Below the pieces are notes generated by a model. The model saw only the letters and a list, made by a program, of their open reading frames with translations, made no database searches and was not told the origin of the DNA. A program made the translations under genes and the position numbers. Positions 9,423 to 58,033 of a stretch of 64,000 bases of DNA are shown piece by piece. The stretch lies in assembly GCA_947629245.1 (NCBI GenBank), contig CANRDC010000005.1, positions 1-64,000 of the forward strand. Direction: 5' to 3'. How positions within the stretch are numbered: position 1 is the first letter of the stretch; every line of letters begins with the position of its first letter. The stretch is from an uncultured Oscillospiraceae bacterium. GTDB lineage: Bacteria > Bacillota > Clostridia > Oscillospirales > Oscillospiraceae.

Positions 9423-12400
9423 ATGAGAAAGCCGATGAACAGACTGTTTGCTTTGGTTTTGTGCGTGTTGCTGCTGGTGTCCCAGATGGGCCTCACCGAC
9501 GGCGTCGCCGTGGAGACGGAGGACCCGGCCGCACCGGTCCAGACGTCCGAGCAGGTTTCCCAGCCGGAGCTCACGGAAGAGCCCGAGCCCACGGAAGAGC
9601 CTGTGACGGACCCTGCCGAAGAGCCCGCGCCCGAGCCCACCGAAGAACCCGAGCCGGAGCCTACCGAAGAACCCGAGCCCGAGCCTACCGTAGAGCCTGA
9701 GCCTGAGCCCGAGCCCACCGAAGAGCCCGCGTCCGAGCCTGCCGAAGAGCCCGCGCCGGAGGTCACCGAAGAGCCCGCGCCCGAGCCTGCCGAAGAGCCC
9801 CAGGCGGAGCCCACCGAAGAACCTGAGCCGGAGCCTACCGAAGTACCCGAGCCTGAGCCTACCGAAGTACCCGAGCCGGAGATCGCGACGATCGCCGGGA
9901 TGATGCCGATGTCCCTGAATGCGGCGAGCATCACGCTCACCGCCGAGCCCAGTCCGTCGCCCGCTGTCGCCGGAACGGAGATCACTGAGATCACCCTGAC
10001 GGCGACGGGCGGCACGTTTGCCGAGTCCCAGGACGCCTCCAATTTCAGCGTCAGTGGCCCCGGGATCACGAGCGTGACCCCGACCACGGCAACGAGGCAG
10101 ACGGATAATACGAACATCGTCAAGCTGGAAGTCAGCGGCTGCACGCCCACTGCGGCGGGCGACATCACTGTCACGGTCCAGCCGAGCGCCTTTGACACGG
10201 AGCAGCCCGACAGGGAGGTCAAAGCGACCATCACCGTCAGCGCTCCTACGGTCACCGTGAGCGCCAGCGCCAGCGAGGCCTTGCAGGCGGGCAAATCCGG
10301 CACCATCACTCTTACCGCCGAAGGCAGCGTCTTTGCCAGTTCTCTGAACAAGGATTCTTTCACCGTTGATAACGGCACCGTGACCGCCGTCGACGATGGT
10401 GGGAATAGTTCCACCACCCTGACCGTGACCCCCAAAGCGGCGGGCAGCATCACCGTCACGATAGCGAAGGCGGCGTTCAAATATCAGCCCTCGGAGGAAA
10501 CGATCACCGCCAGCGGAACTATCAGCGCCACCGCCGCCACGACCCCCACCGTGACCGCCAGCGGCACCCTGACTGCGGGCACGGCTGGGGGCAGCATCAC
10601 CCTCACCATCGACGGCGCAGGCAACACCTTTGTCGATAGTCCGGCGAACACTTTGTTCTCCTTTGATCCGTCGACTGGTGCGGCGGATGGCCTGAGCATC
10701 ACCGGTGCCAGCGGAAGCAGCAACTCCGTCACCCTGACCGTCGGCGGCACGCCCAAGGAGAAGGGCGATCTCACCGTCAAGATCGCGAAGGATGCATTCA
10801 CATACCAGCCCGGTGATAGTGTCACCGCCACGGGCGCTAGCGTCAAGGCCGCCGAGGTCTCCGTGACCGCCAGCGGCGCCCTGACCGCGGGCGTGGAAGG
10901 TCAAATCACCCTTACCGCCACCGGCAGCACCTTTGCCAGTACGCTGGACAAGGATTCTTTCACCGTTGATAACGGCACCGTGACCGCCGTCGGCACTGGC
11001 GGGACCGCCGAAACCACCCTGACCGTGACCCCCACTAAGACGGGTACCCTCACCGTCACGATAGCGAAGGCGGCGTTCACATACCAGCCCGAAGGGGAGA
11101 ATGTCACCACCGGCAGCGTCACCGTCAGCGCGCCCACCGGGGACCTTGAGGCGAAGCTGAGCGCCAATCTCTACGCGGGCACGGAGGTCAACGGCCAGAC
11201 CGTCACCCTCACCATTAAAAATGGCCAGGGCCTGACGTTCAAGAATAATCTTTCCGACACGACTGCTTTCACGCTGACCAACGGCCTGAGCGTCACCAAC
11301 GTGTCGTATACTAGCGGCAGTTCCGTCACCCTGACCCTGGGCGGCACGCCCACCAAGGATGGCGAGGCCACCATCACGGCAGATAAGACGAAGGCTTTTA
11401 CCATCGCGCCCGACACCGCGCCCACCGCGAACATCACCGTCACGGCGGCTCCCTCCGTCGAACTGTCCGCCGAGACTGCGACCATCACCGCGGGTATCGA
11501 CAAGACTATCCAGGTCAAGATCAACACGGAGAACGTCACATTCGTCAGCGCACCGGCGAAGAATCTGTTCACCCTCAGCGGCATTGATAGCGCTCCGACC
11601 GTAAGCAGCGTATCCGTCAACACGGACGGCGATTCCAAGACCGCCACCCTGACGCTGAGCGCCGCGCCCAGCACGAGTGGACAACTGACCGTCAAGGTCG
11701 GCAAGGCAGCCTTTGACCCCGTGGCTGGCAACGAGCCCACAACCAATGTCACCGTTGACGCCCTGACCGGCACGGTCTCCGCGACGCTGAATAACGGCAC
11801 GCTCACCGCCGGTACGGAGGTCACAAATCAGACCATCACCCTCAGCATCACAGACGGCAAGCTCACCTTCAAGGACAGCGATCTTGCCACGACCGACTTC
11901 GAGCTGGGAGAGGGGAGCGACGGTCTCTCGATCTCCAATGTCAGCTGGACCGATGCAACACACGTCACCCTGACCCTGAGCGGCATCCCCGCCGCGAAGG
12001 GCGAGTTCACCGTCACGGCAAAGACCTCAGCGTTCGCGGTCCCGCCCACGGACAGCCTGGGCCGGACCACGGAAGGGACGATCTCCATCGGCTATCCCAC
12101 CATCACCCTGACCGCGACGGCGAAAGGCGATATCTACGAGGACGAAGAGATCAGCGAAGCCAACAACACCATCACCCTGACCGCAACGGGCGGCATATTC
12201 AACGCCACCTCTGAAACCACGAATTTCAAAGTCGAGGGCGTCAATGGCGTGACGCTGGCCTCCGTCTCGGCGGCGGGAGATACCAATACCGCCACCCTGA
12301 CCATTAGCGGCACCCCCAAGGGGACCGGCAAGCTGACCATCACGGTCGAGCCGGACGCGTTCAAGTATAAGCCTGAGAGCGCATTGACGAATCAGGATAT

Positions 12401-15400
12401 TTCTGTTAAGACTCCCACCGGAAGCATCACCGTGACGCTGAACGGCGATCTCTACAAGGGCACCCCGGTCACTAACCAAAACATCACCGTTTCCATCGCC
12501 GAGGGCAGCCACGGACTGGTGTTTAAGTCCAGTCAAAATAAGAGTTACTTCACGCTGGACCCAGATTGCGGGCTGACGATCTCTGAGGCAACGCTGGCCA
12601 ACGGAAAAGTCACCCTGACCCTGAGCGGAACGCCCACCATAGCGGGCCAGGTCACCGTCACGGCAACAAATGACGCGTTTGAATACGCCCCCGCGAAAAC
12701 GGAGACGGGAACCATCACCGTCAAGGAGGCTCCGACGATCACCCTGACCGTTGCGCCCACGACCGTCCCCCAGGGACTGGAGGTCGGCACCATCACCCTG
12801 ACCGCCGACGGCGGGACCTTTGCCGATCCCGCAAGCAATGAAAACTTCTCGGTCAACGACGGTCTGAGCGTGAGCACGGTAGCGATCAGCAACAGCGGCA
12901 AGACCGCCACCCTGACCGTCACCGGCGCGCCCACGTCCACCGGCACCCTGACCGTCACGGCGAAGAAGGAAGCCTTTAAGATCCGGCCCGCCGCCGATAT
13001 CACGAAAAACATCACCGTCGAGGACCTGGACGGCAAAGTCTCCGCGTCGTTCTCCGGCACCCTCACCGCCGGTACGGACGCCGCCGGTCAGACCATCACC
13101 CTCAGCATCACGCAAACCAACGGCCTTACCTTCAAGACTGGCGTTGCCGCGACCGACTTCCAGTTGGGAGAGGGAAGCAAGGACCTGACGATCAGCGGCG
13201 TCCAGAGGGACAGCGACACGTCCGTCACCCTGACCCTGAGCGGCATCCCCGCCGCGAAGGGCGAGTTCACCGTCACGGCAAAGAAGGACGCGTTCGCGGT
13301 CGCCCCCACGGACGGCCAAGGCCGGACCACGGAAGAGACGATCTCCATCGGCTATCCCACCATCTCCGTGACCGCCGCGCCGAAGGAGGATATCTACGAG
13401 GGCGAGAGCGTCGGCAGCAACCCCATCACCGTCACGGCTACAGGCGGCGTGTTCAACGCCGACACCCTTGACGGCAATATCACGATCTCCGGCCACGACG
13501 AACTGACGCTTACATCCGTCGCAAAGGGCGAGGACGATAATACCGCTACCCTGACTGTCACCGGCACGCCCTCCACGGAAGGGACCCTGACCATCACGAT
13601 CCAGCCTGCCGCGTTCAAGTATCAGCCTGAAAATGCGCTCACCGCGACCGTCAAGGTCTTGAAGCCCACCGGAACGGTGACGGCGGAGCTGAACGGCGAT
13701 CCCCTCTACAAGGGCACGCCGGTCAACGGCCAGACCGTTACCCTCACCATCGGCGCGAGCAGCCACGGCCTGCGTTTCCAGGATGAGGCAGAGCTTGACG
13801 TCAGCGAGTTTATGCTGAAAGAGACCGCTGCCGACGGTCTGACGATCGAAAGCGTCACGAGGGACAGCGACACGCAGGTGACGCTGACTCTGGGCGGCGA
13901 ACCCACCACGGCGGGCGACTTTGAGGTCGACGCCGAGCACACCGCGTTCACATACGACCCCGGCATGGAGGAATCCGCCGGGACCTTCACCGTCAACCCG
14001 GCCCCGGACATCACCGTGACCGCCGACCCGGACTCCGTGACCGCCGGTCTGGAGCTGGGCTCCGTCACCATCACCGCCCAGGACGGGACCTTCCTGTCCG
14101 AGTTGAACGCCGGTCTGTTCACCATCACCAGCTCTGACGGCATCGCGGACAACATGTCCGTCACCGGCGTGAGCGTGGTGGACGACGCCACGGTCACCCT
14201 GACCGTCTCCGGCGCGCCCACCAAGGACGGCACCCTGATCGTCACCGTGGACCGGACGGCCTTTGTCATCCGGCCTGAGAGCGGCCCCGAGGCGAAGATC
14301 GCCGTTGCCAAGCTGACCGGTTCGGTGAGCATGGCGCCGGCCGGGGGCGAGCTCACCGCGGGCACGGCGGCGGACGGCCTGACGCTGGCGCTTGAAGCCT
14401 CCGGCACGGGCCTGACCTTCCGGGAGGACGCCGCGCCCGGCGACTTCCTGCTGACCGGCGTAGGCGCCGAGGGCCTGACGGCGGCTTCCGTGACATGGAC
14501 CGACGAGACCCATGTTTCCCTGACCCTGAGCGGCATTCCCGCCACGGCGGGCGAGCTGGGCGTCACGGTGACGACCGCCGCGTTCGCGGTCCCGCCCACC
14601 GACGGCGAGGATGTGACCGCCGCGCCCTCCGTCACCGTGGCCTACCCCACCGTCACCCTGGCCCCGACACCGGCCTCCGTCAACGAGGGCGAGGCCCTGG
14701 AGACCATCACCCTTACGGCCGAGGGCGGCGTGTTCAGCGCCATTGACGGCGGGACTGACGGCTTCGCCGTCTCCGGCGTCGAGGGCGTGACGCTGGTCTC
14801 CGTCACGGCGGAGGACGGCTCCGATACCGCCACCCTGACCCTGAGCGGCGCGCCCAGCGCCACCGGCACCCTGACCGTCACGGTCCAGCCGGAGGCGTTC
14901 AAGTACCAGCCCGAAAAGGCGGTCACCGCGGTCGTCACCGTCGTCGACCCCACCGGGACGGTCGCCGCAGTGCTGAGCGACGCGCTCTACGCGGATACGC
15001 CGGTCGCCGGTCAGACCATCACCCTCACCATCACGGACAGCCACGGCCTGACCTTTAAGGACGGCCTTGCCCCGGACAGCTTCCAGCTGACCGGCGCGGG
15101 CGCGCAGGGGCTGAGCGTCTCCGGCGTGACCGGCAGCGGCGACGCCGTCACCCTGACCCTCAGCGGCACGCCCGCAGCCGGGTCCTTCACCGTCACGGCG
15201 CTGGCAGCCGCGTTCGCGTTCGATCCCGGCGCGGATATCGACGCGGGGACCGTCAGCGTGAACGCCGCCCCGGAGGTCTCCCTCACCGCCGACCCCGAGA
15301 CCCTCACCGCCGGTGAGGCCGTCGGCACTATCACCCTCACCGCCGTCGGCGGAACCTTCGTTCCCGAGCCGGACGTCAGCCTGTTCGCCCTCTCCGGCAG

Positions 15401-17066
15401 CGTGGCCGACAGCCTGACCGTGAGCGCGGTAACGGTCGACGGCTCCACCGCCACACTCACCATCACCGGCATGCCGCAGATCGCGGGGACCCTGACCGTC
15501 ACGGTCGACAGGGCCGCCTTCGCTCCCGTCGCCGCCGCCGCCCCCGCAGTGGATATCGCCGTCGAGGCGGCGGGCTCCGTCAGCGCGGACGTCGAGACCG
15601 ACGCGGGCGCGCCCAGCACGGAATTCGGCTCCTCCGTCGCCGACCTGGCCGACGCCGTCCTCGACGAGGAGGAAAAAGCCCTGCTGGATGCCGGGGCAAA
15701 GGTCACCATCACCCTGCAGGAGAAGGACATCTCCGCCGCCGTCGACCCGGCTGACAAGGCCGCCGCTGAGGCCGCCGCCGACGATTTCACCGTCGGGGCT
15801 TATCTGGACGTGACGCTCACCAAGAGCGTCAACGATAAGCAGACGCCGGTCCACGAGACCAAAAATCCGATCATCATCGTGTTCTCGGTCCCCCAGAACC
15901 TGCAAGGCGTCAACGGCAGAGAGTTCGCCGTCGTGCGCGTGCATGAAGGCGTAGGGTCGATGCTGCAGGACCTGGACAGCGCTCCGGACACCATCACCAT
16001 CGCCACGGACCGGTTCTCCACCTACGCCATCGTGTACCGTGACGCGCCGGAGCCCACCCCCGCGCCTACCGAGACGCCCGCGCCCACCGAGACGCCCGCG
16101 CCTACGGAGGCCCCGGAGGTCTCCCTCACCGCCGACCCCGAGATCCTCACCGCCGGTGAGGCCGTCGGCACCATCACCCTCACCGCTGTCGGCGGCACCT
16201 TCGTTCCCGAGCCGGATGTCAGCCTGTTCGCCCTCTCCGGCGACGGGGCCAGCGGCCTGACCGTGAGCGCGGTAACGGTCGACGGCTCCACCGCCACACT
16301 CACCATCACCGGCGCGCCCAAGAGCGCGGGGACCCTGACCGTCACGGTCGACAGGGCCGCCTTCGCCCCCGTCGCCGCCGCCTCCCCCTCTGTGGATATC
16401 GCCGTCAAGGCGGGCTCCATCAGCGCGGACGTCGAGACCGACGCGGGCGTGCCCAGCACGGAATTCGGCTCCTCCGTCGCCGAGCTGGCCGACGCGATCC
16501 TCGACGAGGAGGAAAAAGCCCTGCTGGAGGCCGGAGCAACGGTCACCATCACCCTGCAGGAGCAGGACATCTCCGCCGCCGTCGGCGCGGCTGACAAGGC
16601 CGTCACTGAGGCCGCCGCCGGGAACTATACCGTCGGGGCGTATCTGGACGTGTCGCTCATCAAGAGCGTCAACGACAAACAGTCGCATGTGCACGAGACC
16701 AAAAACCCGATCATCATCGTGTTCTCGGTCCCGGCGAACCTGCAGGGCGTCAGCGGCAGAGAGTTCGCCGTCGTGCGCGTGCATGAAGGGGCGGGGGCCA
16801 TGCTGAACGATCTGGACGGCGACCCGAATACCATCACCATCGCCACGGACCGGTTCTCCACCTACGCCATCGTGTACCGTGACGGACCGGAGCCCACGCC
16901 CACGCCCACCCACGCGCCTGCCGCGCCCGGCGCCTCGACCGCGCCCGCCGCGCCCAACACGGGCGACGAGGCCGCGCCCGCCCTGTGGCTGGGTCTGCTG
17001 GCGCTCTGCGCCGGGGCTCTGGTCCTGGTCGGCGGCCTGTTCCGGCGCAGGAGCGGACAGCGATAA
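9423..17066 (+). CDS. Giant sortase-anchored surface protein with about 19 Ig-like repeats
   Basis: The 2547-residue protein has a signal peptide (about 1-29) and a Glu/Pro/Thr stalk of EPTEEPEP-type units (about 37-155). About 19 beta-sandwich modules of 90-110 residues follow, each with the pattern TITLTA-GGTF, then [17 protein letters not shown]. Modules 7-18 form three copies of a four-module unit. Near the C-terminus a module plus a partner domain ([15 protein letters not shown] through [12 protein letters not shown]) is present twice, separated by a Pro/Thr linker. The end has an APNTG sortase-like motif (2510-2514), a hydrophobic helix and a basic tail. It is probably an adhesin or wall-surface spacer. 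RBS AGGAGGAG. The likely regulator is the neighbouring LytTR system. The ligand is unknown. Confidence 0.9.
11762..15565 (+). repeat. Three-copy higher-order repeat (about 1.26 kb each) inside the surface-protein gene
   Basis: Units start near 11762, 13021 and 14311, and the last ends near 15565. Each encodes four different Ig-like modules in the same order, recognisable by their ends: [25 protein letters not shown], and AF-IRP or AFAPV. Stretches such as the one coding for [16 protein letters not shown] are almost identical between units 1 and 2 at the base level, while unit 3 is more diverged and GC-richer. This points to growth by duplication of four-module blocks. Confidence 0.8.
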
Positions 17067-19917: not shown

Positions 19918-20568
19918 TTACAAAATCGTATTGCCCTCGCGCAGCCACCCCAGATACTCGCTTTCCAGGGCACGAGCCGACAGCTCCCCAGCCAGATATC
20001 CCTTCATGAGCCGGTCGAAAAGCCGCACATACTCGCTGATGGCCCCGGCTACGTCGGCGCTGGTATAGTCCCGCCGGGCGGGCAGGTCCAGCGTCCGGGT
20101 GAACCGGCCCGGATACAGGGCGTACTCCACCGGCCGGGCGTGATAGGGCGCGACCAGCTCGTCCTCTACCTCTTTCCACAGCCGGAAGAACTGCCCCATG
20201 GCCTCCAACAGCTCTTGGGACTGGGTCCGGAACACCACCGCCAGCTCCCCCAACGCGCCTTCCCGGTCCCGGTACAGCTCCACGGAGTACTTCACCGTGG
20301 GCCGGTAGCGGTACTGGAGGCTCGACTTCACGCTCATGGTCATGGAATTGGGCGTGATGAAGGGCACCAGCGCCCGGTCCGCGTCCAATATCTCGCTGAT
20401 CTGCCGGAAGATGTCCTGGACCCGCCGCTCCGGCGTTACCAGGTCCGTGTACTCGGCCAATATCTGATTGACCAGCGCGGAGCGGTTCGTGCCCATCCGG
20501 TGAGCCAGATCGTCCACCGCCCGGACCACGTCGTCCGAGAGCATCAGGCTGTACAGGGTCTTCTTCAT
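19918..20568 (-). CDS. Ribbon-helix-helix domain protein of unknown function
   Basis: The 216-residue protein begins MKKTLYSLMLSDDVVRAVDDLAHRMGTNRSALVNQILAEYTDL, a classic ribbon-helix-helix DNA-binding segment (about 1-45), here split as MKKTLYSLMLSDD / RMGTNRSALVNQIL. The remaining 170 residues are mixed alpha/beta and unrecognised (SLQYRYRPTVKYSVELYRDR; then helical FFRLWKEVEDEL and VRLFDRLMKGYLAGEL). A longer frame reaches to 20838, but GAGGTGAGAGAT just before this ATG decides the start. It may be a CopG/Arc-type regulator with an added effector region. It lies upstream of clpB on the same strand, separated by the inverted repeat; the intergenic region with the ABC-F gene is divergent. 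Confidence 0.7.
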   Translation of the reverse strand: MKKTLYSLMLSDDVVRAVDDLAHRMGTNRSALVNQILAEYTDLVTPERRVQDIFRQISEILDADRALVPFITPNSMTMSVKSSLQYRYRPTVKYSVELYRDREGALGELAVVFRTQSQELLEAMGQFFRLWKEVEDELVAPYHARPVEYALYPGRFTRTLDLPARRDYTSADVAGAISEYVRLFDRLMKGYLAGELSARALESEYLGWLREGNTIL

Positions 20569-20653
20569 ATCTCTCACCTCGCGGACATTGTACAACGCCA
20601 CATGAAACTTGTCAAGCAATTTATATAAATACATAAAACATTTTTCTTTTAGC

Positions 20654-20682
20654 TTGCGCTTTTCCGCCGTCCGTGATACACT
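20654..20682 (+). promoter_or_regulatory. Promoter of the ABC-F leader transcript
   Basis: TTGCGC (20654-20659) and TACACT (20677-20682) are spaced by 17 bases. The implied start, near 20690, would yield a leader of about 220 bases before the ABC-F gene, including the short uORF and hairpins below. Confidence 0.6.
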
Positions 20683-20713
20683 TAAAACATCAAATATGAT
20701 TTGAGGTGAAAAG

Positions 20714-20734
20714 ATGATATCTGCTTCCTGCTGA
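20714..20734 (+). CDS. Six-residue leader peptide (uORF) of the ABC-F gene
   Basis: An ATG with a good ribosome site (TTGAGGTGAAAAG, 20701-20713) starts a six-codon frame MISASC and stop. It lies in the leader of a probable antibiotic-resistance ABC-F gene and just before a run of hairpins ending in a terminator. Such uORFs sense drug-stalled ribosomes in known ARE ABC-F and erm leaders. This role is inferred from position, not shown. Confidence 0.55.
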   Translation: MISASC

Positions 20735-20741
20735 CAGCTTT

Positions 20742-20897
20742 GGCATGACGGGAGATGCTGCATCCCGGCGGCGCGAGCCGCTTTGTCGTCATGCCGGTCT
20801 GCGGGAGCGGAATTTCTTTTCAACTGACATATCGGCATGGCTTCGCCATGTCCTCCGTCGGCTGTGGGAATGCTTCCCGCGGCCGATTCTGATTTTT
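20742..20897 (+). promoter_or_regulatory. Predicted transcription attenuator before the ABC-F gene
   Basis: Three stem-loops follow the leader peptide. First, GGCATGACG (20742-20750) pairs with CGTCATGCC (20787-20795). Second, CATGGC-TTC-GCCATG lies at 20836-20850. Third, CGGCTGTGGGAA (20859-20870) pairs with TTCCCGCGGCCG (20874-20885), followed by ATTCTGATTTTT, a terminator-like stem and U run. The ribosome site AAGGAGG comes directly after the U run. This is the layout of ribosome-mediated attenuators of resistance genes. Confidence 0.6.
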
Positions 20898-20912
20898 AAG
20901 GAGGGCATGACT

Positions 20913-22400
20913 ATGTCATTGATCGACGTTTCCCACCTGTCCTTCGCCTACGAGGTCGGCTACGACTACATCTTCCGGGACGTGAGCTTTCAGATCGACA
21001 CGGACTGGCGACTGGGCTTCACGGGCCGGAACGGCCGGGGCAAGACCACATTTTTGAAGCTGCTGCTGGGCGAATACGACTACCAGGGGACCATATCCGC
21101 CTGCGTGGACTTTGAGTACTTCCCCTATCCGGTGCAGGACCCGGACGCGGACACGGGGGAGGTGCTGGCCGGGGTCTGTCCGGACGCGCCCGCCTGGAAG
21201 CTTCGGCGGGAGCTGGGCAGACTGGGGGTGGACGAGGGCGTGCTGTACCGCCCCTTCTCCACCCTTTCCAACGGCGAACAGACCAAATCGCTGCTGGCGG
21301 CGCTGTTTCTGCGGGAAAACGCCTTTCTGCTCATCGACGAGCCCACCAACCACCTGGACATGCGGGGCCGGGCGCTGGTGAGCGACTATCTGGCCGGGAA
21401 AAAGGGATACATCCTGGTCAGCCACGACCGGGCGTTCCTGGACGGGTGCGTGGACCACATCCTGTCCATCAACCGGGCCGATATCCAGGTCTGCCGGGGG
21501 AATTTCTCCACCTGGTGGGAGAACAAGCAGCGCCAGGACCGGTTCGAGACGGAGCAGAACGACCGACTGAAAAAGGAGATCAAACGCCTGAAGACCACCG
21601 CACGGGAAAAAGCGGACTGGTCGGACACGGCGGAGCGGCGCAAGACAGGGATCGACCGGAACCGGGTGGACAACGTGAAGGGCTGGCGGCCCTTACAGGG
21701 GGCGAAGTCCAAGAAACAAATGAGCCGGGCCAAGGCCATCGAGGGCCGCCAGGAGCGGGCTCTGGAGGAGAAGTCGAAGCTGCTGAAAAACATCGACACG
21801 GCGGAGGAGCTGAAAATGACCCAGCTTCCCTATCGCAGCCCCCGGCTGCTGTATTTAAAGGATGTGACGGTGGATTACGGCGACGGTCCCGTGTGCGAGC
21901 CGGTGAGCTTCACTCTGGAGCGGGGCGACCGGGTGGCGGTCCAGGGCCCCAACGGGGCGGGCAAGTCCAGCCTTCTCAAGCTGATCTGCGGGGAGGACAT
22001 CCCCCACACCGGCGTGTTCGAGCGGGGCGGCGGGCTGATCGTCTCCCGAGTGCCCCAGGACGTGTCGGGCCTGTCCGGCTCTCTGCGGGATTACGCCGAG
22101 GCGGCGGGCATCGACGAGAGCCTTTTCCTGGCCATTTTGCGCAAGCTGGACTTCGAGCGGAGCCAGTTTGAAAAGGACATGAGCGCCTTCTCCGCCGGGC
22201 AGAAGAAAAAAGCGGTTCTGGCCCGGAGCCTGTGCGAAAAGGCCCACCTGCACGTGTGGGACGAGCCCATGAACTACATCGACGTGCTCAGCCGGATGCA
22301 GCTGGAGACGCTGCTGCTGGAGTTTCGCCCCACGATCCTGTTCGTGGAGCACGACCGGGCCTTCTGCGAAAAGATCGCCACCAAGACCGTGGAGCTGTAA
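20913..22400 (+). CDS. ABC-F ribosome-protection ATPase, Lsa/CplR-like (lincosamide-streptogramin A-pleuromutilin type)
   Basis: The 495-residue cytosolic protein has two ABC domains and no membrane segment. ABC1 has GRNGRGKTT, LSNGEQTK and FLLIDEPTNHLD. A long charged linker (about 210-300, the ribosome-reaching arm) follows. ABC2 has GPNGAGKSS, FSAGQKKK and HVWDEPMNYIDVLSRMQ. The opening MSLIDVSHLSFAY, FQIDTDWRLGF and the WDEPMNYID variant resemble Lsa-group ARE ABC-F proteins, which displace antibiotics from the 50S exit-tunnel entrance. The start at 20913 is set by AAGGAGG eight bases upstream; an ATG at 20907 lies too close. The attenuator upstream supports an inducible resistance role. 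It could instead be a housekeeping translation factor of similar type. Confidence 0.85.
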   Translation: MSLIDVSHLSFAYEVGYDYIFRDVSFQIDTDWRLGFTGRNGRGKTTFLKLLLGEYDYQGTISACVDFEYFPYPVQDPDADTGEVLAGVCPDAPAWKLRRELGRLGVDEGVLYRPFSTLSNGEQTKSLLAALFLRENAFLLIDEPTNHLDMRGRALVSDYLAGKKGYILVSHDRAFLDGCVDHILSINRADIQVCRGNFSTWWENKQRQDRFETEQNDRLKKEIKRLKTTAREKADWSDTAERRKTGIDRNRVDNVKGWRPLQGAKSKKQMSRAKAIEGRQERALEEKSKLLKNIDTAEELKMTQLPYRSPRLLYLKDVTVDYGDGPVCEPVSFTLERGDRVAVQGPNGAGKSSLLKLICGEDIPHTGVFERGGGLIVSRVPQDVSGLSGSLRDYAEAAGIDESLFLAILRKLDFERSQFEKDMSAFSAGQKKKAVLARSLCEKAHLHVWDEPMNYIDVLSRMQLETLLLEFRPTILFVEHDRAFCEKIATKTVEL

Positions 22401-57802: not shown

Positions 57803-57970
57803 ATGAAACCTGCCCTGTTCGTGGTCTCAAGGGCCCGGTTGGACCCACATCTATCATAAGGGACGCCATATATGGCGGCGGAGCGCAGGCCTCCCGGCAT
57901 CCGCCGGACGTTGGAAGCACGGAAACCGCCACGAGGCGACCCACCTGCCAAGCTGTGCAGGTTACAAATC
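57803..57970 (+). ncRNA. ssrS: Probable 6S RNA
   Basis: About 165 bases downstream of DUF1292 have no coding frame of note. The ends pair: AACCTGC (57807-57813) with GCAGGTT (57957-57963). Just inside lies CCTGTTCGTGGTC, like the conserved GUUCG side of bacterial 6S RNAs, and the 3' side reads CCACCTGCCAAGCTGTGCAG. The middle can form a long irregular stem (GGCGGCGGAGCG; CCTCCCGGCATCCGCCGG). A TAGTAT -10 lies 8 bases before the predicted start. 6S RNA binds SigA-RNA polymerase as a promoter mimic. A different structured RNA is possible. Confidence 0.6.
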
Positions 57971-57994
57971 TGGCCCCCACGGCAGGGCGGGCCT

Positions 57995-58033
57995 CGCCGG
58001 AGCAAAGATATCTTTGCTCCGGCGATCGTTTTT
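57995..58033 (+). terminator. Terminator downstream of the probable 6S RNA
   Basis: CGCCGGAGCAAAGAT (57995-58009) is directly followed by its perfect inverse ATCTTTGCTCCGGCG (58010-58024), then ATCGTTTTT. Confidence 0.9.

Follow-up and report, generated by a model that had tools for sequence, protein, structure and literature searches.

Transcription attenuation governed by a short upstream open reading frame (uORF) is established for vmlR, vgaL, cplR, vgaA, msrD and lmrC, according to the excerpts of PMC9226507, PMC10201436 and PMC12421871. In the published model of the Bacillus subtilis vmlR leader (uORF MIN), the uORF is part of an anti-antiterminator, the pause hairpin SL-2 sits at the apex of the antiterminator, a terminator and sequestering of the Shine-Dalgarno (SD) sequence complete the plan, and induction proceeds by arrest at initiation (PMC9226507). 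The Clostridioides difficile cplR leader (uORF MRI) likewise precedes a clostridial ARE-ABCF gene with a uORF hairpin, a terminator and an SD-hiding layer (PMC10201436). A uORF (MAGN) has been predicted with uORF4u before the Lsa/ARE3 gene of LsaA, from homologues of at least 80% identity (PMC10201436), and for are5sc and tiaA of Streptomyces coelicolor toeprinting showed that lincosamides, streptogramin A and pleuromutilins stall the ribosome on the start codon of the uORF (PMC12421871). These three drug groups act at or just after initiation (PMC9226507, PMC10201436, PMC12421871).

The leader described here precedes an Lsa-type ABC-F gene in a stretch of 64,000 nucleotides from an uncultured Oscillospiraceae bacterium, referred to below as the window. 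It is read as a ribosome-mediated transcription attenuator of the VmlR/VgaL/CplR kind, with a probability of about 0.82; its conservation, its two folds and their dependence on occupancy of the uORF were computed. The original prediction of a leader peptide and attenuator on the plan known from erm and ARE ABC-F genes is supported by the conserved uORF, terminator and folds, by an antiterminator fold on partly emerged transcripts and by the published ABC-F plan, with the correction that the arrangement is nearer to the transcription attenuation of vmlR and cplR than to erm. VmlR differs in being an ARE2 and not an Lsa/ARE3 protein and in its tripeptide uORF; the window leader, known from sequence and modelling, has in addition a three-way junction within its first helix (P1), and its predicted antiterminator extends over the terminator loop to take in half of the 3' arm as well. 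In cplR, an ARE1 gene, it is the hairpin of the terminator that conceals the SD (excerpts of PMC10201436), whereas the SD of the window gene lies after the terminator. The LsaA uORF has another peptide, and are5sc and tiaA are ARE5 genes of an actinobacterium with the uORFs MLV and MVGDDDISG (PMC12421871). Relative to the known attenuators, the gene clade, the uORF consensus and an architecture without Rfam match are new; among the matches listed from the open-licence literature, as far as their excerpts go, no description of clostridial Lsa leaders was recognised.

The ABC-F gene and the elements of its leader

The gene (20913-22400, + strand, start ATG 20913) encodes a protein of 495 amino acids with two ABC_tran stretches. 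The protein passed the NCBIfam cutoff for ribosomal protection-like ABC-F proteins (NF000355, 449 bits, cutoff 380) and matched the Lsa model over its full length, below the curated cutoff (NF000167, 679 bits, E 4.5e-204, cutoff 750), so that "Lsa-type" is the right word. Its top PDB match was Lsa(A) (7nhk, 2e-122, residues 1-493), and by analogy with LsaA it would protect against pleuromutilins, lincosamides and streptogramin A. The upstream neighbour (19918-20577, - strand; weak N-terminal ribbon-helix-helix match below the Pfam cutoff) is divergent, and the leader terminator therefore serves the ABC-F gene alone. This neighbour was present at 14 of the 19 genus loci (contig ends truncate two of these), which suggests a resident, chromosomal locus; it was not found beside the ABC-F gene in L015, L016, L018 and L026, and the upstream sequence of L024 is too short to judge. 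A plasmid-borne origin was dismissed, as the distant search of a plasmid collection returned six records of 60-90% identity, none over 80% of the query. Elsewhere in the window, a 6S RNA was found at 57804-57997 (+ strand; Rfam 71 bits, gathering 46.4), and a repetitive ORF of 2547 aa (9423-17066, + strand) carries a long Glu-Pro-Thr-rich stretch near its N terminus and a C-terminal tail that is hydrophobic by eye; it is perhaps a cell-surface protein.

All leader elements lie on the + strand. By sequence reading, a promoter-like site (20654-20682) consists of TTGCGC (20654-20659), a spacer of 17 nt and TACACT (20677-20682) with an extended -10 element TGATACACT; the box TGnTAnAyT was present in 18/18 aligned genus leaders. 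A consensus promoter scan requiring 9 of 12 positions did not report this site and listed a different + strand site instead. The promoter is thus weak by consensus, which was counted against the attenuator reading. Transcription would start at about position 20689. The uORF (20703-20734) has the SD GAGGTG at 20703-20708 and runs from ATG 20714 to TGA 20734, encoding MISASC. Downstream of it, a terminator scan and pairing across 18 leaders gave a predicted intrinsic terminator (20857-20897) made of a 14-bp hairpin (20857-20887) and the U-rich tail TCTGATTTTT. The hairpin was paired in 97.6% of cells of the 18-leader alignment, with two pairs varying on both sides; terminator-like sites on both strands numbered 4 in 1.5 kb vs 1.4 expected in shuffles. 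The SD of the gene, AAGGAGG (20898-20904), is kept as GGAGG or near it in the genus, and the segment CATGTCCTCC (20847-20856) is complementary to 20900-20909. The promoter, the uORF MISASC with its own ribosome site, the terminator-like stem with its U run and AAGGAGG are accordingly all in the sequence, in the order originally proposed.

Conservation was determined in 35 genomes of the same genus, 19 of which (the window genome included) hold the start of the gene at 75-100% identity; G032 holds a C-terminal piece of the gene only, at a contig end. The 3' half of the leader was found as one copy in each of these 19 genomes and was not found in the remaining 16. For the 5' half, a search with a covariance model derived from 18 leaders returned the same 19 and a weak partial match in G006 (E 0.016). 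The leader L009 was omitted from the alignment of 18 on account of an insertion directly after its uORF stop, a repeat about 188 bp long; its promoter and its uORF (MISASC) are present, parted from the rest of the leader by the insertion, around which P1 is still predicted. The repeat itself (L009 about 1133-1320, gene orientation, in G013:C40) is hyper-palindromic and interspersed; it matched 25 times in the genome to which the window belongs, and 21/35 genus genomes have matches. In all 18 aligned leaders the uORF has six codons without any indel, the peptides being MISASC, MISAAC, MDSASC, MINASC, MINTSC, MINAAC, MISASF and MISSSC. With L009, the SD, start and stop of the uORF are retained at constant length in 19/19 genus leaders, as had been anticipated from the window sequence, and a U-tailed terminator is predicted from sequence in every one of them.

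Predicted leader folds with and without a ribosome on the uORF

The ribosome-free fold of 20700-20900 has an energy of -97.1 kcal/mol, vs -69.1 +/- 4.8 for shuffled sequences (z -5.8, 0/200 shuffles as good). In the minimum free energy (MFE) folds of 18/18 genus leaders, the uORF codons pair with a segment about 90 nt downstream to form P1, which surrounds the three-way junction, and the terminator comes after it. The limits of P1, the anti-antiterminator helix, are approximate: the 5' strand (20704-20735) contains the uORF SD and codons, and the 3' strand (segment 2, 20796-20825) is predicted to be free under a ribosome covering the uORF; both rest on MFE folds and own-leader pairing. The junction enclosed by P1 (20741-20796; stem 20741-20749/20788-20796, hairpins 20750-20766 and 20767-20782) was paired in 100% of cells across the 18 leaders and is largely invariant. 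A separate hairpin, SL2 (20834-20852), was paired in 95.1% of cells, with one G-C pair replaced by A-U in 3 leaders; it would form the apex of the antiterminator, as in the layout published for vmlR (PMC9226507). The three hairpins of the original prediction need correcting: there is one big stem, inside which a three-way junction carries two small hairpins, and one further hairpin stands apart.

Over the 18 leaders, this ribosome-free structure was paired in 97.3% of 898 cells, vs 56% at most for slid versions. Covariation within the genus is thin because 30/50 pairs are invariant, and just 4 vary on both sides, which was counted against the attenuator reading. Pairing between 20788-20796 and the 5' arm of the hairpin 20834-20852, considered as a candidate conserved switch, was possible in 89.1% of cells, with no covariation. 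Complementarity to the own leader as compared with other leaders was calculated for 36 representatives of 51 leaders. The P1 strands (mean z -1.68) and the terminator arms (-2.03) favour their own-leader partner; the preference was moderate for the middle segment with the terminator 3' arm (-0.94), weak for the middle with the SD (-0.51) and for the uORF with the 5' arm (-0.22), and absent for the middle with the 5' arm (0.09). According to the folds and the own-partner preference, the uORF probably sits inside the anti-antiterminator. No Rfam family reached its gathering score in the leader; the loose threshold gave two matches (E 3.7 and 4.9).

A ribosome on the uORF was modelled by treating as free only the RNA from 16 nt past the A of the uORF start codon onwards, while the terminator 3' arm emerged stepwise. 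Capture was defined as the mean pairing probability of the emerged 3'-arm bases with partners that lie upstream of the terminator, and leaders with a shuffled middle (25 shuffles) served as the control. With the ribosome on AUG and 60% of the arm emerged, capture was 0.61 for the 18 leaders of the genus and 0.67 for 31 further leaders (shuffled middle 0.17 and 0.10); at 80% it was 0.54 and 0.41 (0.07 and 0.06). At 60% it exceeded the control mean in 18/18 genus leaders and 28/31 others; the counts at 80% were 16/18 and 25/31. No more than 1/25 shuffles matched the capture in 10/18 genus leaders and 23/31 others at 60%, the corresponding counts at 80% being 13/18 and 21/31. For the window leader, 0.46 vs 0.10 was obtained at 60% (2/25 shuffles as high) and 0.42 vs 0.00 at 80% (0/25). 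At 60%, and to the disadvantage of the model, 6-9 of 25 shuffles equalled the capture in the genus leaders L014, L021, L023 and L024, and 7-16 in L052, L126, L127, L128 and L146 among the others. Without a ribosome, the terminator share at 60% was at least 0.69 in 46/49 leaders, the exceptions being L128, L131 and L146.

The freed segment and the emerging 3' arm thus appear, in the model, to form a transient antiterminator. Its predicted 5' strand is 20802-20828 (MFE fold of 20731-20880, 3'-arm capture above shuffles), and its predicted 3' strand, 20857-20879, comprises the terminator 5' arm, the loop and half of the 3' arm (the same MFE fold, alignment pairing and 3'-arm capture). In one of two equivalent registers, the antiterminator helix with its hairpin was paired in 93.5% of cells of the 18-leader alignment, vs 91.7% in column shuffles (2/500 as high) and 53% at most when slid; 3/20 pairs vary on both sides, which is not above shuffles. 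As an antiterminator test, 3'-arm capture took the place of pairing between the terminator 5' arm and the RNA before it: in truncated transcripts the 5' arm pairs with nearly any upstream RNA, so that the 51 leaders as a set did not exceed shuffles. This result and the absent own-leader preference of the 5' arm count against the model. An alternative antiterminator fold, on which the original prediction depended, hence exists on partly emerged transcripts above shuffled controls. The expected difference between folding with and without a ribosome was seen on the partly emerged terminator and was largely lost on the complete one: with the full 3' arm and the ribosome on AUG, the terminator share returned to at least 0.7 in 12/18 genus leaders (window 0.93) and 22/31 others. 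Since the complete terminator mostly wins again at equilibrium, antitermination has to be kinetic. This return is the main weakness of the attenuator model, in which capture would have to outlast the pause at the U-tract.

The proposed mechanism would operate as follows. In the absence of drug, ribosomes would clear the six-codon uORF, the uORF RNA would pair with about 20796-20825, and the terminator at 20857-20887 would then fold and end most transcripts ahead of the ABC-F gene. If a drug kept the first peptide bonds from forming, a ribosome would be parked on the first codons and P1 would be prevented. The freed segment 20802-20828, with the hairpin 20834-20852 at the apex, would pair with the 5' arm and loop of the terminator and with as much of its 3' arm, about half, as is emerging, and the terminator would be delayed long enough for the polymerase to pass and for the ribosome-protection protein to be made. 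As a possible second layer, 20847-20856 may sequester the gene SD in leaked transcripts. Drug identity, kinetics, read-through and resistance are inferred.

Distribution outside the genus and the probable signal

A terminator together with a uORF of at most 8 codons and its SD was scored upstream of related and control genes with an SD motif list that was derived from Lsa leaders and applied to all loci. The plan was found for 18/19 genus genes (L009 was missed), for 21/29 genes from other genera of the family and for 13/23 further Lsa-type genes on GTDB contigs (36-66% identity). Controls were 47 other ABC-F genes (56 loci, minus 9 without a start or upstream sequence), with the plan in 2, and 31 mechanically called window ORFs of at least 200 aa, with the plan in 0. 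Lsa-type genes outside the genus thus stand at 34/52 vs 2/78 for the controls (Fisher p 8e-16), the leaders not being independent; with the on/off criterion added, the counts are 25/52 vs 1/78 (p 2e-11), at thresholds set after the Lsa leaders had been seen. L139 and L045 lie on the same contig, and L046 and L144 have less than 50 nt upstream. Among Bacilli, the plan occurs in Brevibacillus (L040) and, of the two Paenibacillus loci, at L042 but not at L041. In a strictly filtered search of 400 genomes of the family, the genus-built model gave six matches outside the genus with E up to 0.05, of which L157, L158 and L159 precede Lsa-type genes, L156 (E 7e-6) precedes an ABC exporter, and L161 and L162 look like chance. 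At E 0.05 this model missed other Lsa leaders, for example those of G037 and G038.

Two of these leaders have very short uORFs. L156:1501-1730 (G337:C2:103873-104100) carries the full plan with a two-codon uORF (MI-stop) and stands before an ABC exporter, not an ABC-F gene; the exporter has fused membrane and ATPase parts, under the curated cutoffs shown, and a DNA search of 200 family genomes returned this copy alone. L040, from Brevibacillus fluminis, has a putative start-stop uORF (AUG UAA) 218 nt before the gene, an alternative UUG start (MKRM-stop) being possible. Other uORFs outside the genus include MRK-stop (L123, L128, L135, L146), MRNFSC and MINFSCK. In the six early-stop leaders (L040, L123, L128, L135, L146 and L156), the RNA tail past the stop is predicted to pair at -15.7 to -26.6 kcal/mol, values calculated without shuffle control.

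When the modelled ribosome was moved along the genus uORF (60% emerged), capture was 0.61-0.80 for codons 1-5, 0.35 for codon 6 and 0.41 at the stop; this fall was not seen in the leaders of other genera. With the ribosome placed at the stop, the window leader folds so that junction RNA holds the antiterminator strand, which may be the reason for the low late-codon capture. From genus to genus the uORF changes in length and peptide but the RNA pairing persists, so the likely signal is arrest near the start codon, and the retained tail pairing favours arrest at or just after initiation over sequence-specific macrolide arrest. From the protein family and the variable uORF peptide, pleuromutilins, lincosamides and streptogramin A would be the probable inducers. 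A wider reading is put forward tentatively, as a possibility rated clearly less likely than not: the leaders may belong to a family of portable attenuators, spread over Clostridia and some Bacilli, for which an SD-led AUG would suffice as sensor (down to L040 and the MI-stop of L156) and the peptide would be free, the antiterminator would capture the terminator loop and the emerging 3' arm, the genus leader would tell early from late arrest, and the same kind of leader would stand before an ABC exporter (L156).

Other readings of the leader and their bearing on the biology

The alternative closest to the attenuator reading is translational attenuation as in ermC, with the SD hidden by 20847-20856 and exposed on uORF occupancy and the terminator in a secondary role. 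The pairing of 20847-20856 with 20900-20909 in 99.4% of cells of the 18 leaders (0 pairs varying on both sides), and the SD-hiding layer known for cplR (excerpts of PMC10201436), speak for it. In the equilibrium folds of the window, however, the SD was equally hidden with and without the ribosome (unpaired 0.28 in both; 0.44 and 0.49 in the two ribosome states when the terminator stem was forbidden). Sequestering as the induced switch was rejected on this modest effect, equal in both states; as the small middle-to-SD preference and the terminator common to all 19 genus leaders point the same way, ermC-like control as the main mechanism is improbable.

Much less credit is due to the readings that give the uORF or the leader another function, all three of which were rejected. 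That the Ser-Cys codons sense charged tRNA in cysteine or serine starvation is very unlikely: the uORF does end in Ser-Cys or Ala-Cys in 17/18 aligned leaders, but L020 has Phe for Cys, the six uORFs of other genera that stop early keep a predicted tail pairing, and the gene encodes a ribosome-protection factor and no amino-acid function. A riboswitch, T-box or protein-bound leader, in which the uORF would have no role, deserves slightly less weight still; the large and conserved three-way junction would suit it, but neither the Rfam result nor the uORF kept intact and at constant length throughout the genus does. Translation of the leader as an extension of 56 residues from ATG 20745 can practically be discounted, even though the frame is open from there, since the open frame upstream of the gene ATG is at most 28 residues long in 12/19 genus loci, AAGGAGG is spaced for ATG 20913 and the leader shows indel variation.

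Should the transcription attenuator reading be true, inducible and normally silent ribosome-protection genes would be present in many uncultured Oscillospirales of the gut and in other Clostridia, and genome or resistome counts alone would not reveal the drug response. The distinction between sensing of the start codon and of the nascent peptide was left for follow-up by published ABC-F work (excerpts of PMC10201436), and leaders whose uORFs differ naturally in length at preserved RNA pairing would provide a ready test of an arrested start codon against a nascent peptide.
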